Shown here piece after piece: positions 2,669 through 6,439 of a DNA stretch of 9,711 nucleotides. The stretch is taken from contig DAHWHV010000164.1 of the NCBI GenBank assembly GCA_027335545.1, positions 1-9,711 on the forward strand. The letters run 5' to 3'. The notes under the pieces are model-generated. The model was not told the origin of the DNA. It was given only the letters and a program-made list of their open reading frames with translations, and did not search any database. A program made the position numbers and the translations under genes. Every line of letters starts with the position of its first letter. The first letter of the stretch is position 1. The DNA is from Clostridia bacterium. GTDB taxonomy: Bacteria; Bacillota_E; RBS10-35; JAJYVN01.

Positions 2669-3393
2669 TTGTCCTCGGCCTGGACGGTTCGCTTGGCGGC
2701 CCCGGCGTCGCGCTCGCGGACGAGGCCGGGTTGCGCGCCGCCTGCTGGGCCGGACCCGGGTCGCGGCCGGCCGGGACCCTGCTGGCCTTGGCCGAGGGGG
2801 CCCTGACCACCGAGGGGCTGTGCCCCCGGGACATCGGTGGGGTGGCCGTCGCCGTGGGCCCGGGCTCCTACGCGGGCGTGCGCGCCGCCGTGATGACGGC
2901 CAAGTGCCTCGGGCACGCGGCCGGCTGGCCGCTGGTGGCGATCGGCTCCCTGGAGGCCCTGGCCCGGGGCGTGGGTCCCTGGCCGGGTCCCGTGTGGACC
3001 GCCCTGGACGCCCGACGGGACCGGTGTTACGCGGCCGCGTTCCGCTGGGGCGCGGGCGGTGGACTCCTCCCAGAGGGCGAGCCGACGCTGTGGGCGCGCG
3101 ACGCCCTGCGCCGGGCTGCGGCGGCCGCCTCCGGGGGGCCCCTGCTCCTGGTCGGGACGGGCTGGGACGAAGGCGACCGCTGTGCCCTGGCCGCGGAGCG
3201 GGCGGAGGGGGCCTGGCTCAGCCCAGCGACCGCCGCCACGGCGCTGGCCCCGGCGGTGGCCCTGCGGGGGCGGCAACTGCTGCTGGGGGGCGTGACGACG
3301 GACCCCCTCGCGCTTGTCCCGCTGTATGTCGGGGAGCCCGTCATCGGCCGCCCGGCCGCGGACGGGCGGGCCGGCCGACCTCGCCCAGGTTGA
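2665..3393 (+). CDS. tsaB: tRNA t6A modification scaffold protein TsaB
   Basis: TsaB is the catalytically inactive TsaD paralogue that dimerises with TsaD and recruits TsaE in the t6A37 complex. The 242-residue product has the family's ASKHA-fold start M-I-V-L-G-L-D-G-S at its first residues, the hallmark GPGSYAGVR (65-73; usually GPGS-F/Y-T-G-L/V-R), the A-L-D-A-R-R-D-R-x-Y-A-A segment (113-124), and the closing P-L-Y-V-G-E-P motif that corresponds to P-x-Y-L-R in relatives. Length is normal for the family. The GTG at 2665 is chosen because it overlaps the tsaE stop (GTGA) and places the conserved V-L-G-L-D strand right at the N-terminus. The last ~20 residues are a Gly/Arg/Pro-rich tail with no conserved features. 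Confidence 0.93.
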   Translation: MIVLGLDGSLGGPGVALADEAGLRAACWAGPGSRPAGTLLALAEGALTTEGLCPRDIGGVAVAVGPGSYAGVRAAVMTAKCLGHAAGWPLVAIGSLEALARGVGPWPGPVWTALDARRDRCYAAAFRWGAGGGLLPEGEPTLWARDALRRAAAAASGGPLLLVGTGWDEGDRCALAAERAEGAWLSPATAATALAPAVALRGRQLLLGGVTTDPLALVPLYVGEPVIGRPAADGRAGRPRPG

Positions 3394-3419
3394 GACGGGC
3401 CGGCGGGGTGGCGTAGACT
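3390..3419 (+). promoter_or_regulatory. Promoter candidate for rimI
   Basis: TTGAGA (3390-3395) and TAGACT (3414-3419) are separated by 18 bp. They match the vegetative consensus at five of six and four of six positions. The -35 overlaps the tsaB stop codon, and the pair lies about 75 bp before the rimI start. TAGACT-type -10 boxes are common in very GC-rich genomes. This would allow rimI, and perhaps tsaD, to be transcribed apart from tsaE-tsaB. Confidence 0.45.
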
Positions 3420-3492: not shown

Positions 3493-3981
3493 ATGGCGGT
3501 GCAGCAGGTTCCCCTGCCCGTGCGCTTCCGTGACATGGATCTGCGCGCCCTCTCGGGGGTCCTGGACATCGAGCGCCGCTCCTTCGCCACCCCGTGGTCG
3601 GAGCGGGCCTTCATCTCAGAGTTGACGCAGAACGCCTACGCCCATTACGTCGTGGCCCTGCGGGGCCACCAGGTGGTGGGCTATGCCGGGATGTGGCTGA
3701 TCCTCGACGAGGCCCACCTGACCAACATCGCCGTGCACCCCGCCGAGCGCGGACGCGGGTTGGGGGACGCCCTGCTGACGGAGATGGAGCGCCGGGCCGT
3801 GGCCGAGGGCTGCCTGCGCATGACGTTGGAGGTGCGGCCCAGCAACCCCGCGGCCCAGGCCCTCTACCGCAAGCACGGGTTCCTGGTGCGAGGGCGCCGC
3901 CCGGGGTACTACGCCGATACGCACGAGGACGCGCTGATCATGTGGAAGGATGACCTGGGCCCGCAGACCCCTGCGCCGTAA
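3493..3981 (+). CDS. rimI: Ribosomal-protein-alanine N-acetyltransferase RimI-like (GNAT)
   Basis: This GNAT-fold enzyme transfers acetyl from acetyl-CoA to a protein N-terminus; the model substrate is ribosomal protein S18. The gene is very often embedded among the t6A genes, as here. The 162-residue product carries I-E-R-R-S-F-x-x-P-W (26-35), E-A-H-L-T-N-I-A-V-H-P (73-83), the acetyl-CoA-binding RGRGLG (86-91), L-E-V-R-P-S-N-P-A-A-Q-A-L-Y-R-K-x-G-F (112-130), and the C-terminal Y-Y-A-D-T-H-E-D-A-L-I-M-W (139-151). All of these are typical of RimI. Glu113 and Tyr125 fall in conserved family positions. The ATG at 3493 is preceded by GGGGAGGGG about 10 bases upstream. The first ~10 residues are extra relative to many homologues. 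In some lineages RimI has broader specificity, so the exact substrate is not established. Confidence 0.9.
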   Translation: MAVQQVPLPVRFRDMDLRALSGVLDIERRSFATPWSERAFISELTQNAYAHYVVALRGHQVVGYAGMWLILDEAHLTNIAVHPAERGRGLGDALLTEMERRAVAEGCLRMTLEVRPSNPAAQALYRKHGFLVRGRRPGYYADTHEDALIMWKDDLGPQTPAP

Positions 3982-4284
3982 GGGTTTCGCTACTGGCGGC
4001 GGGCCTTGGGCACCGTGGCGGCCAGGGTGCGCCCTGGGCCACGCCGCCCCCGGTTGCGCATGGGTGGTGGTGCGTGTGACTGGTATGGGACCCCAGCGCC
4101 CACCCCGCCACGCTGCCGCACCTGCTCCCCCGAGGCCGCGCCAGTAAGGGGCAACGGGCCGGGCGCAGGTGCGGGCAGACAGTTGCGCCGCGCGGGACCG
4201 CCCGGCCGGCGCGAAGGCCGAGTCCGAACGGGCGGCGCTTCGATGTGGGGCAGATGTGGGGGAGATGTGGGGGCAGGAGGGGCG
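3982..4284. other. Gene-free spacer between rimI and the IS remnant
   Basis: I see no supported gene here in any frame. Open frames exist, but their translations are Arg/Pro/Gly low-complexity products of the GC-rich DNA. No left end or N-terminal tnpB homology of the downstream IS element could be recognised, so the border of the insertion, or of a later deletion, is somewhere in this stretch. A weak cysteine pair (C-R-T-C) in one frame is not enough to call a second transposase. Confidence 0.6.
4242..4274. repeat. Tandem repeat, three 11-bp units
   Basis: GATGTGGGGCA, GATGTGGGGGA and GATGTGGGGGC follow each other with exact 11-bp spacing at 4242, 4253 and 4264. The array ends eleven bases before recognisable tnpB homology begins, so it marks, or formed at, the truncation point of the IS remnant. 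Confidence 0.85.
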
Positions 4285-4659
4285 GTGACGGGTATGCTGG
4301 CGCAGTCGACGCTGGCCAAGAGCATCGCCGCCGTGGGCTGGGGAGAAGCCCTGCGGCCACTGGAATACAAGGCGCGGGGGCCTGGCCGCCCCTTCGTCCA
4401 GATCGATCGCTTGTACCCGAGCGGGAGGCGGTGCCATGCCTGCGCCCCTGCCGCGGCCCACGCCCCGCTTGACGTGCGGCACTGGGACGGTTCCGCGTGC
4501 GGCGCGGCCCTGGACCGGGACGCGAACGCGGCACAGAACGTCAGGGATGCGGCACTTGCGGAACTGGCCGCCGGGCTGGCGGTGTCTGCCTGTGGAGGGG
4601 ACGGAAGACCCGCGCGGAAACGCGTGGGCGGACCCCGACGAAGCAGGAAGCCCCGATGA
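4285..4659 (+). pseudogene. tnpB: tnpB C-terminal fragment (RNA-guided nuclease remnant)
   Basis: TnpB is the RNA-guided RuvC-like endonuclease of IS200/IS605 elements, normally about 400 aa. Only the last 124 residues remain. Recognisable parts are V-T-G-M-L-A-Q-S-T-L-A-K-S-I (1-14), V-G-W-G-E with L-E-Y-K (17-29), the D-R-L-Y-P-S with C-x-x-C half of the zinc ribbon (41-53), the RuvC-III L-D-R-D-A-N-A-A-Q-N-V (76-86), and the tail A-A-G-L-A-V-S-A-C-G-G-D (95-106). RuvC-I and RuvC-II are gone. The second zinc C-x-x-C has lost its first Cys (Gly69 in W-D-G-S-A-C-G; TGT to GGT would explain it). The fragment is nevertheless an open frame: AGGAGG at 4275-4280 sits four bases before the GTG at 4285, and its TGA overlaps the tsaD start as ATGA. 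It cannot be an active nuclease. Whether the stub is translated is unknown. Confidence 0.85.
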
Positions 4660-4721
4660 GCGATCACCGGGAATCCCCCGGCTTTAGCCGTGGGGAGGGG
4701 GTCAAGGACGCTCCCGGGCTC
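4600..4721 (+). ncRNA. Possible orphan omega RNA (reRNA) of the IS remnant
   Basis: In this IS family the guide RNA of TnpB is made from the 3' end of tnpB plus the right end, with its guide being the first ~16 bases of flanking DNA. The right-end hairpin is intact here (4674-4696). The guide-equivalent bases would be 4706-4721, starting GGACGCTCCCGGGCTC, inside tsaD. The 5' limit is arbitrary and transcription is not shown. Without a full TnpB at this locus it could only act with a TnpB encoded elsewhere, or be inert. Confidence 0.3.
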
Positions 4722-5771
4722 TGCCTCGGCATCGAGACCAGTTGCGACGAGACGGCGGCGGCCGTCGTCGCCGCGGACGGTACGGTGCGCAGCAACGTGG
4801 TCGCCAGTCAGGCGGCGCTCCATGCGCGCTACGGGGGCGTCGTGCCGGAACTGGCGGCGCGGCGCCACCTCGAAGGACTCCTGCCCACCGTGGATCTGGC
4901 GCTGGCCGGCGCGGGCGTCTCCTGGGCGGACCTGGGCCTGGTGGCGGTGACGCGTGGTCCAGGCCTTCCGGCGGCCCTGCTGGTGGGCTTGGCCGCCGGC
5001 AAGGCGCTGGCCTTCGCCCGCGGGCTGCCGCTGGTGGGGGTCAACCACCTCGCGGCGCACCTGCATGCCCACGCCCTGGACGTGCAGGCCGCAGCGGGCC
5101 CGGACGGCCTGCCCCGCCCGACCGTGGGGCTGCTGGTCTCCGGCTCGCACACCGACCTCTGCCTGCTCCCGGCCGGTGGCGGCGTGCGCCTGCTGGGGAC
5201 CACCCTCGACGACGCGGCCGGTGAGGCCTTCGACAAGGTGGCTCGCCTGCTGGGCCTGGGGTACCCAGGCGGGCCGGCGTTGGATGCCCTGGCCCGGGCC
5301 GGCGACCCGGTGGCCGTCGCCTTCCCGCGGACGACGGGGCCGCTGGGGGGCGCGCGTCCGGCGGGCCCGCACCTGGTGGGGGGGGCCTACGCCTTCAGCT
5401 TCAGCGGACTGAAGACGGCCGTGGCCGTCCACCTGCAGGGCGGCGCCCCGGCCGGCCGGGCGGACGTCGCCGCCTCGTTCCAGGCCGCTGTCGTCGAGGT
5501 CCTGGTGGCCAAAACCCTGGCTGCGGCCCGCGCCCAAGGGGTGCGCACGATCCTGGTCGCGGGGGGGGTTGCCGCCAATTCCGCCTTGCGGGCCGGGCTC
5601 ACGGCGGCGGCGGGGGCGCGGGGGCTGGAGGTGCGCTTCCCGCCGCCGCGGTACTGCACCGACAACGCGGCGATGGTCGCGGCCGCCGGTTGGGCTGAGT
5701 GGCGCCGGGGGCGGCGGGACGGCTGGGGCCTGGACGCCGACCCCAACCTCCCTTTGGAGTTGGGGGGCTGA
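4656..5771 (+). CDS. tsaD: tRNA N6-adenosine threonylcarbamoyltransferase TsaD
   Basis: TsaD is the catalytic subunit that moves the threonylcarbamoyl group onto A37 of tRNA, with TsaB and TsaE. The 371-residue product has L-G-I-E-T-S-C-D-E-T (24-33), G-V-V-P-E-L-A-A-R-x-H (61-71), the metal-binding His pair in N-H-L-A-A-H (131 and 135; commonly HLEGH), S-G-S-H-T (162-166; usually SGGHT), G-E-A-F-D-K-V-A-R-L-L-G-L-G-Y-P-G-G-P (189-207), F-S-F-S-G-L-K-T-A-V (247-256) and C-T-D-N-A-A-M with the metal ligand Asp336. All key residues are present. Homologues begin one to three residues before L-G-I-E-T-S; here about 20 extra residues precede it. The ATG at 4656 is the only ATG, GTG or TTG available upstream of the domain in that stretch and has AGGAAG five bases before it. 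It lies inside the IS remnant, so residues 1 to about 17 are encoded by the IS right end. The stop codon lies in the first unit of an 18-bp repeat. Confidence 0.94.
   Translation: MSDHRESPGFSRGEGVKDAPGLCLGIETSCDETAAAVVAADGTVRSNVVASQAALHARYGGVVPELAARRHLEGLLPTVDLALAGAGVSWADLGLVAVTRGPGLPAALLVGLAAGKALAFARGLPLVGVNHLAAHLHAHALDVQAAAGPDGLPRPTVGLLVSGSHTDLCLLPAGGGVRLLGTTLDDAAGEAFDKVARLLGLGYPGGPALDALARAGDPVAVAFPRTTGPLGGARPAGPHLVGGAYAFSFSGLKTAVAVHLQGGAPAGRADVAASFQAAVVEVLVAKTLAAARAQGVRTILVAGGVAANSALRAGLTAAAGARGLEVRFPPPRYCTDNAAMVAAAGWAEWRRGRRDGWGLDADPNLPLELGG
4674..4705 (+). other. IS200/IS605 right-end hairpin and terminus
   Basis: TCCCCC-GGC, loop TTTA, GCC-G-T-GGGGA forms a stem with one bulged T (4674-4682 with 4687-4696), followed by GAGGGGGTCAA-type sequence ending at 4705. 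This is the well-known right-end signature of IS1341/IS605-type elements, read here as codons 7-16 of tsaD. Confidence 0.85.
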
Positions 5772-5880
5772 GTGGAGTTGGGTCTCTGGGTGGAGTCGGG
5801 TCTCTGGGTGGAGCCGGGTCTCTGAGTGGAGCCGGGTCTCTGAGTGGAGCCGGGTCCCGGAGTCGAGCCGGGTCGGAGCC
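5755..5880. repeat. Tandem repeat, 18-bp unit, about 6-7 copies
   Basis: The unit TGGAGCCGGGTCTCTGAG recurs every 18 bp from 5755. Copies start at 5755, 5773, 5791, 5809, 5827 and 5845, with a diverged one at 5863. Copies 3 and 4 are identical; the others differ at a few positions. The first copy contains the last codons and the TGA of tsaD, so the array begins in coding sequence and runs into the spacer. Because 18 is a multiple of three, two + frames stay open through it, but nothing suggests these are translated. Confidence 0.92.
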
Positions 5881-6028: not shown

Positions 6029-6439
6029 ATGCAGACTCAGGCGATGGACGGTCCCGCGGGCGGCACGGTGACGCTGGAGAAGATCGACCAGGTGCGCGAG
6101 CGCACGGGCGCCGGTTACGGGGAGTGCTACGAGGCCCTGCGGGTCGCCGAGGGCGATGTGGTCCGGGCGCTGATCGCCATCGAGCAGTCGCACCCGGGCC
6201 TGTCGCGGCGCCTCCAGGACAACGGTAGCGCGGCCGCCGAGCGGGTGCGCGACCTCTACCGCGAGGCGGTGCGCACCCGCATCGCGTTGCGCCAGGGGGA
6301 GCGGACGCTGCTGCAGATGCCCGCCGTCGTCGGCGTGGCGGGGTCGCTGGCGCTGCCGGGGCTGGCCGCGGCGGGGGTCATCGCCGCCCTGGCGACGCAT
6401 ACCTCCATCACGGTCGAGCGGGCGTCAACGGGCTTGTGA
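6029..6439 (+). CDS. DUF4342 family protein with UBA-like N-terminal domain
   Basis: The 136-residue product has two parts. Residues ~14-50, [23 protein letters not shown], followed by [11 protein letters not shown], form a UBA/EF-Ts-N-like three-helix domain. Residues ~80-135 hold a short beta-rich stretch, then a hydrophobic segment ([25 protein letters not shown]) ending in T-S-I-T-V-E-R. This is the usual DUF4342 layout; members are widespread in Bacillota and their function is unknown. The hydrophobic part could be a membrane hairpin or a buried core. Start choice: ATG 6029, with GGGGAGG ten bases upstream; GTG 6023 (four-base spacing) and ATG 6044 are alternatives. Its TGA overlaps a GTG in the glyQ frame (GTGA), suggesting one transcript with the synthetase genes. 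Confidence 0.85.

Follow-up and report, generated by a model that had tools for sequence, protein, structure and literature searches.

An IS200/IS605-type right end as the probable translation start of tsaD in a Clostridia bacterium

INTRODUCTION

Insertion sequences can supply promoters to their neighbors, as does the IS found upstream of bgl. In such cases, a mobile element gives a host gene an expression signal. The locus described here is alike in that respect, but the putative signal at tsaD is translational and forms part of the reading frame.

The element involved resembles tnpB-carrying members of the IS200/IS605 group, such as ISDra2, in having a C-terminal TNB domain, a hairpin at the right end, and, as judged from related copies, insertion 3′ of a short motif. 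In one account of ISDra2, TTGAT is both the target and the TAM, and the right end yields a guide RNA with about 16 nt of flanking sequence (PMC8612924). In contrast, the motif of the family studied here is TGAC or TGAT. The copy at tsaD also differs from ISDra2 in being a remnant without a left end and without most of tnpB, whose right end now coincides with the 5′ end of a gene. No tnpA was found in the parts that we read.

Other systems offer partial parallels. One report describes IStrons as insertion sequences that can enter a gene without harming it (PMC4227781). They splice out by means of a group I intron, whereas at tsaD nothing would be removed and the start would be replaced; no Rfam family reached the gathering score in the window. 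Domesticated TnpB proteins, of which TldR is an example described in one source (PMC13418256), similarly represent host reuse of tnpB material. Unlike in TldR, the N-terminal two thirds of TnpB are gone from the window, and no RNA-guided role is proposed. While insertion sequences are known to supply expression signals to host genes, the novelty here would be the capture of the translational start of a core gene through a fixed geometry. A word search of titles and the beginnings of abstracts in the open PMC literature found no description of an IS605-type right end serving as the start of a gene.

RESULTS

The window, a stretch of 9,711 nt, encodes a solute-binding protein gene, tsaE, tsaB (PF00814, 58.2 bits), a rimI-like gene, a tnpB remnant, tsaD, a DUF4342 gene, glyQ, and glyS. 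The remnant (about 4285 to 4705, plus strand) lies 3′ of the rimI-like acetyltransferase gene (3493 to 3981, plus strand; Pfam Acetyltransf_1). It was recognized as the right part of a tnpB element of the IS200/IS605 type by blastn to family copies and by its Cas12f1-like_TNB domain (PF07282, 49.1 bits). The tnpB frame runs on the plus strand from a GTG at 4285 to a TGA at 4657 to 4659, and by eye the zinc ribbon motif present in L155, a family copy with both ends, is without its third Cys here. Positions 4285 to 4706 match a contig of a related genome (G405:C364) at 86% over 422 nt (E = 3e-143). Thirteen loci had long matches to positions 3981 to 4760, of which nine end at 4705 or 4706 (range for all 13, 4698 to 4712) and eight start at 4285. 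Because the match ends and starts cluster in this way, we place the right terminus at GTCAA (4701 to 4705, plus strand), where homology among copies stops, and consider the left part gone. In the same comparison with family loci, the 303 bases between rimI and 4285 were without a match. The right-end hairpin (4674 to 4696, plus strand) was identified by folding, and its sequence is kept in the copies. Compared to shuffled sequences, the fold of the 100-nt right end of the window was unremarkable (z = −1.14), and another right-end fold gave a z of −1.59. The reversed right-end pattern had no matches in 154 genomes.

The tsaD gene (4656 to 5771, plus strand) combines an IS-derived leader with a normal body. 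The leader comprises codons 1 to 17, the final base of codon 17 being host DNA. The gene is full length, its protein scores 368.6 bits against the equivalog model TIGR03723 (cut-off, 296.1), and it retains every residue that is invariant across 40 aligned TsaD proteins. An earlier note on this DNA had proposed that no start codon lies near the conserved N terminus and that the only in-frame ATG, preceded at five bases by AGGAAG, sits inside the IS remnant. Each of these points held. The possible in-frame starts between 4497 and 4800 are GTG at 4497, CTG at 4590, ATG at 4656, ATC at 4731, and GTG at 4785 and 4797, such that ATG 4656 is the sole ATG, GTG, or TTG between GTG 4497 and GTG 4785. 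This candidate start (4656 to 4658, plus strand) overlaps the tnpB stop as ATGA, and the SD-like AGGAAG (4645 to 4650, plus strand) falls within the last tnpB codons, separated from the ATG by CCCCG (4651 to 4655). Initiation at 4785 or beyond would cost L24, E27, S29, C30, D31, E32, and T33, all of which are invariant in the alignment, along with the first strands of the predicted fold. The codon inventory thus points to initiation at ATG 4656 in a gene that is presumably essential in this organism. If so, peptides would be expected from MSDHRESPGFSR.

The same note had placed the hairpin and the GTCAA terminus within the first tsaD codons, as their positions confirm, and had suggested that the hairpin could influence translation. 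A strong block to initiation is not indicated by the local fold, since the hairpin starts at +18 (4674) relative to the ATG and the SD-like stretch is mostly unpaired. Specifically, the unpaired values were 0.77 for the SD-like stretch and 0.34 for the AUG, compared to 0.27 to 0.55 and 0.25 to 0.74, respectively, at five native starts in relatives. The AlphaFold2 model of TsaD had a mean pLDDT of 92.1, with low values for residues 1 to 20 (block means of 46 and 54); the leader is probably a flexible tail on a well-folded core. Between 3300 and 4760, we found no terminator-like sites (0.3 predicted from shuffles) and a single promoter-like site at 3390 to 3419, making read-through from the 5′ genes possible. 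In relative G405, the TGA of rimI overlaps the ATG of tsaD as GGATGATC (loci L092 and L132, by eye). Judging from that one relative, the tnpB remnant and tsaD are now joined by an ATGA similar to the junction that it would have replaced.

The putative translation signals of tsaD pre-exist in the element family. Matches to the tnpB fragment were found in 8 of 13 genomes from the nearest order reached. The best match was at 54% among those listed in a motif-based genome scan and at 73% in a separate genome search, which supplied closer relatives. Family copies of about 1.3 kb carry only tnpB, as far as the copies were read. The TnpB of L155 scored 359.7 bits against NF040570 (guided_TnpB; cut-off, 100) and remained under the cut-off of the IS200_TnpB exception model (381.8 of 425). 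In a typical copy, tnpB ends in AAGCAGGAAGCCCCG[A/G]TGA, followed by the hairpin and GGAGGAGGTCAA; the A of the tsaD ATG is the last base of the final tnpB codon, and its TG opens the tnpB stop. Among 26 distinct right ends, the window included, the position of the tsaD start holds ATG in 9, GTG in 10, and neither in 7; in this sample, L149 and L154 resemble a second subfamily, and L100 is shifted by 1 nt. The frame is open to the element end in 25 of the 26. The base before the tnpB stop was A in 7, G in 10, and C in 1 of the 18 right ends whose stop is in place, out of 29 examined. This wobble-base bias might reflect selection for a start codon, but we base no conclusion on it: nearby Arg codons are also CGA or CGG, and the stretch is presumably guide-RNA scaffold.

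In five intact copies, the shared sequence starts at TGAC or TGAT, and the left ends carried TGAC in 30 of 34 cases and TGAT in 2 of 34, although the search pattern itself contained the motif. Copies with both flanks showed no target duplication. The motif was preceded by an A in 12 of the 34 left ends, compared with 19% (P = 0.02). Within the right end, the stretch that starts with [A/G]TG and ends at the terminus measures 50 nt. The start codon begins 5 nt 5′ of the junction in ATGAY and 2 nt 5′ of it in TGAT|G. Because 50, 5, and 2 are all 2 modulo 3, any gene whose start is interrupted at this motif necessarily falls in frame with the start codon of the element. For tsaD, where the left end is lost and ATGAC is the presumed target, the empty site is predicted to be ATGAC|GGACGCTCCCGGGCTCTG, encoding M-T-D-A-P-G-L-C, a common N-terminal length in this group of TsaD proteins. 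An allele free of the element should then have ATGAC directly joined to GGACGCTCCC.

We propose that the start of tsaD was the insertion site of a tnpB-type IS200/IS605 element, which most likely integrated behind TGAC within ATGAC and thereby parted the start codon from the body of a gene whose native product would have begun M-T-D-A-P-G-L-C-L. The right end would have brought the SD-like AGGAAG and the ATGA formed by the final tnpB codons and stop. Translation from the element ATG would then run in frame into tsaD, since the 50 nt to the end of the element and the 5 nt of ATGAC agree in phase. Later, the left end and most of tnpB would have been deleted and the native start lost with them, with the right end retained because tsaD now depends on it. 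This modifies the earlier view that the insertion removed the native start: the start was probably only separated from the body at first and lost later with the left part. We assign the account as a whole a probability of roughly 80%. The sequences themselves show the element with its terminus, the absence of any other usable start, a leader in a sister TsaD, and the motif and phase in related copies. The in-frame capture most likely follows from the geometry of the element rather than from luck.

Eleven copies of the family have both ends (L155, L156, L157, L158, L162, L163, L165, L166, L182, L197, and L202). The start context of the downstream gene (ATGAC| or TGAT|G) is interrupted in four of them and left alone in the other seven. 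At L158, the interrupted gene is cysteine desulfurase-like (ATGAC|GGAGGAT; M-T-E-D-V-V-S-L-D-C-Y-L-D-N-A). At L155, the ATG of a DUF2249 gene is split (TGAT|GACCGC), and the DUF2249 protein of a relative begins MTSEPLTLDVRD, in agreement with the MTANAREPLTVDVRG inferred for L155. At L163, purM is interrupted (ATGAC|CCGAGCG), but it need not use the element start, since the right end has CTG in place of ATG or GTG and an in-frame ATG follows later. The fourth gene encodes RNase HII at L156 (ATGAC|TGAGCCC), where the first left-end bases are missing and the empty site is less sure; RNase HII starts vary among relatives and did not decide the matter. Because L158 and L156 have in-frame GTG codons further 3′, start capture is possible there but not proven. 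Judged by the codons present, tsaD is the one case that appears to have no usable alternative start. A GNAT gene in genome G401 also lies 3′ of a right end, with about 55 recognizable bases and an in-frame ATG.

The alternative that survives best is that an ordinary insertion at tsaD met a lucky frame, at odds of 1 in 3, and that the start-codon geometry of the family is coincidental. This would accommodate the seven copies that leave starts uninterrupted, as well as right ends such as L100, L126, and L146 that lie just 5′ of genes with their own start in another frame. The enrichment test also leaves room for it. ATGAY or TGATG at the site, followed by at least 100 open codons, was found at 4 of 11 real sites versus 120 of 929 TGAY sites in 108 kb from seven related loci (P = 0.04), a null that also counts internal Met codons and leaves the loss of harmful insertions uncorrected. 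Without the internally deleted L197 and L202, the figure was 4 of 9 (P = 0.02). Survivor bias acts in the same direction as the enrichment, because gene-killing insertions are lost. We therefore regard the geometry as solid and the enrichment for start codons as only suggestive. Nevertheless, the phase match is geometric wherever the motif belongs to ATGAY or TGATG, as in the four cases above (with L156 less certain). Furthermore, a second subfamily with the right end GGAGGATGTCAA (14 loci, nine other genomes) has ATG, GTG, or TTG at the corresponding position in 0 of 13 readable right ends. Frame 1 is open over a long stretch at four of its loci: L205 is cut within an MFS gene, L212 has an ATG beside the junction, and L211 and L215 are without a Pfam match. 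At another locus, L204, an in-frame ATG lies slightly further 5′. The contrast between the two subfamilies is small. Taken with the phase match, it leads us to consider a lucky frame rather unlikely.

The leader itself can be followed in TsaD relatives. Among the 120 matches listed of 7,998, any of four leader words occurred near the N terminus in P0002 only, although three other TsaD proteins of the 120 are N-terminally truncated. The leader of P0002 aligns to that of the window without gaps and with 13 of 21 residues identical, the bodies being identical at 335 of 350 residues, and its leader words are recognizable right-end residues of the element. In the same set of 120, the next relatives are at most 77% identical and mostly have short N termini; those without the element begin, for example, MGAAGAGLCL, MRPVGRGLCL, or MTGLCL, and the records of P0013 and P0014 are among the few with long, unrelated N termini. 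Together with the terminus, SD-like stretch, and start that belong to the element family, these comparisons sustain the claim that an IS end was captured as the N terminus of tsaD, and the same extension was absent from the listed relatives without the IS. The leaders of the window and P0002 may derive from one old insertion or from two separate ones. A protein search with the leader alone (P0001, residues 34 to 73) returned no candidate under a word limit that makes it uninformative.

P0002 also bears on whether tsaD is translated from further 5′, either from GTG 4497 or from another signal, in which case the leader would be longer and ATG 4656 incidental, with the start still inside the element. 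GTG 4497 is in frame, the frame is open, and the database record of P0002 begins 57 residues before its MSHPRESPG. Against this, gene callers often pick the longest frame. Residues ahead of the P0002 leader are poorly conserved, the alignment to the window covering 44 positions at 45% (E = 7e-05), most of them inside the leader, and ATG 4656 has its SD-like stretch at a suitable distance, such that a more distal start seems improbable. Least probable is that the window holds a dying tsaD while a second, intact copy serves the cell, given a body that is intact, exceeds the equivalog cut-off, keeps all alignment-invariant residues, and is nearly identical to that of a sister with a similar leader, and given that none of the 13 nearest-order genomes had more than one match at an E value of 1e-110 or better.

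DISCUSSION

Capture of the element start would mean that a mobile element lends its translation start to a normally essential core gene, and a sister lineage has a matching leader. A broader and still tentative idea is that this IS subfamily swaps start codons: with its motif contained in ATGAY starts or in the stop-start overlap TGATG, and with an SD-like stretch and an ATG or GTG at the right end in the restoring phase, its insertions into the starts of important genes would be tolerated, and old ones, as at tsaD, would become permanent. If this geometric rule is true, the element neutralizes its own insertions with just an in-phase start codon, an effect comparable to IStron splicing. The rule gives simple predictions that are testable by reporters and insertion surveys, and start annotation beside tnpB right ends calls for care.

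Several minor observations concern right ends and junctions. The right ends of L143, L150, L126, L100, and L146 lie shortly 5′ of genes for ftsA, an era-like GTPase, a peroxiredoxin, a dipeptidase, and cation efflux, respectively, all of which are in the same orientation and keep their own starts. At L157 (G401:C24, junction 2443), ctcgATG of an XRE-type regulator (MLTR_LBD) comes after the right end ..GGAAGGAGGTCAA; the regulator gene keeps its own ATG, but its Shine-Dalgarno sequence may be provided by the terminus itself. In the window, positions 4234 to 4290 contain gatgtgggg repeats and a GGAGG ahead of GTG 4285, where the element is truncated. A ribosome-binding site of its own is conceivable for the tnpB fragment, as is coupling to tsaD via ATGA. 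If ISDra2 is taken as a model, the guide segment of a right-end RNA would coincide in position with the tsaD bases that come first after the terminus (4706 to 4725); TnpB is broken here, and we offer this as only a thought.

Other features lie further from the junction. The gene between tsaD and glyQ (6029 to 6439) encodes a DUF4342 domain (PF14242, 52.9 bits), and a similar gene sits 5′ of glyQ in genome G368. Short tandem repeats occur directly 3′ of tsaD (5772 to 5880, with a unit like gagtggagccgggtctct), and repeats with a unit like ccgccgcgtttcc are found 5′ of tsaE (1801 to 1900).
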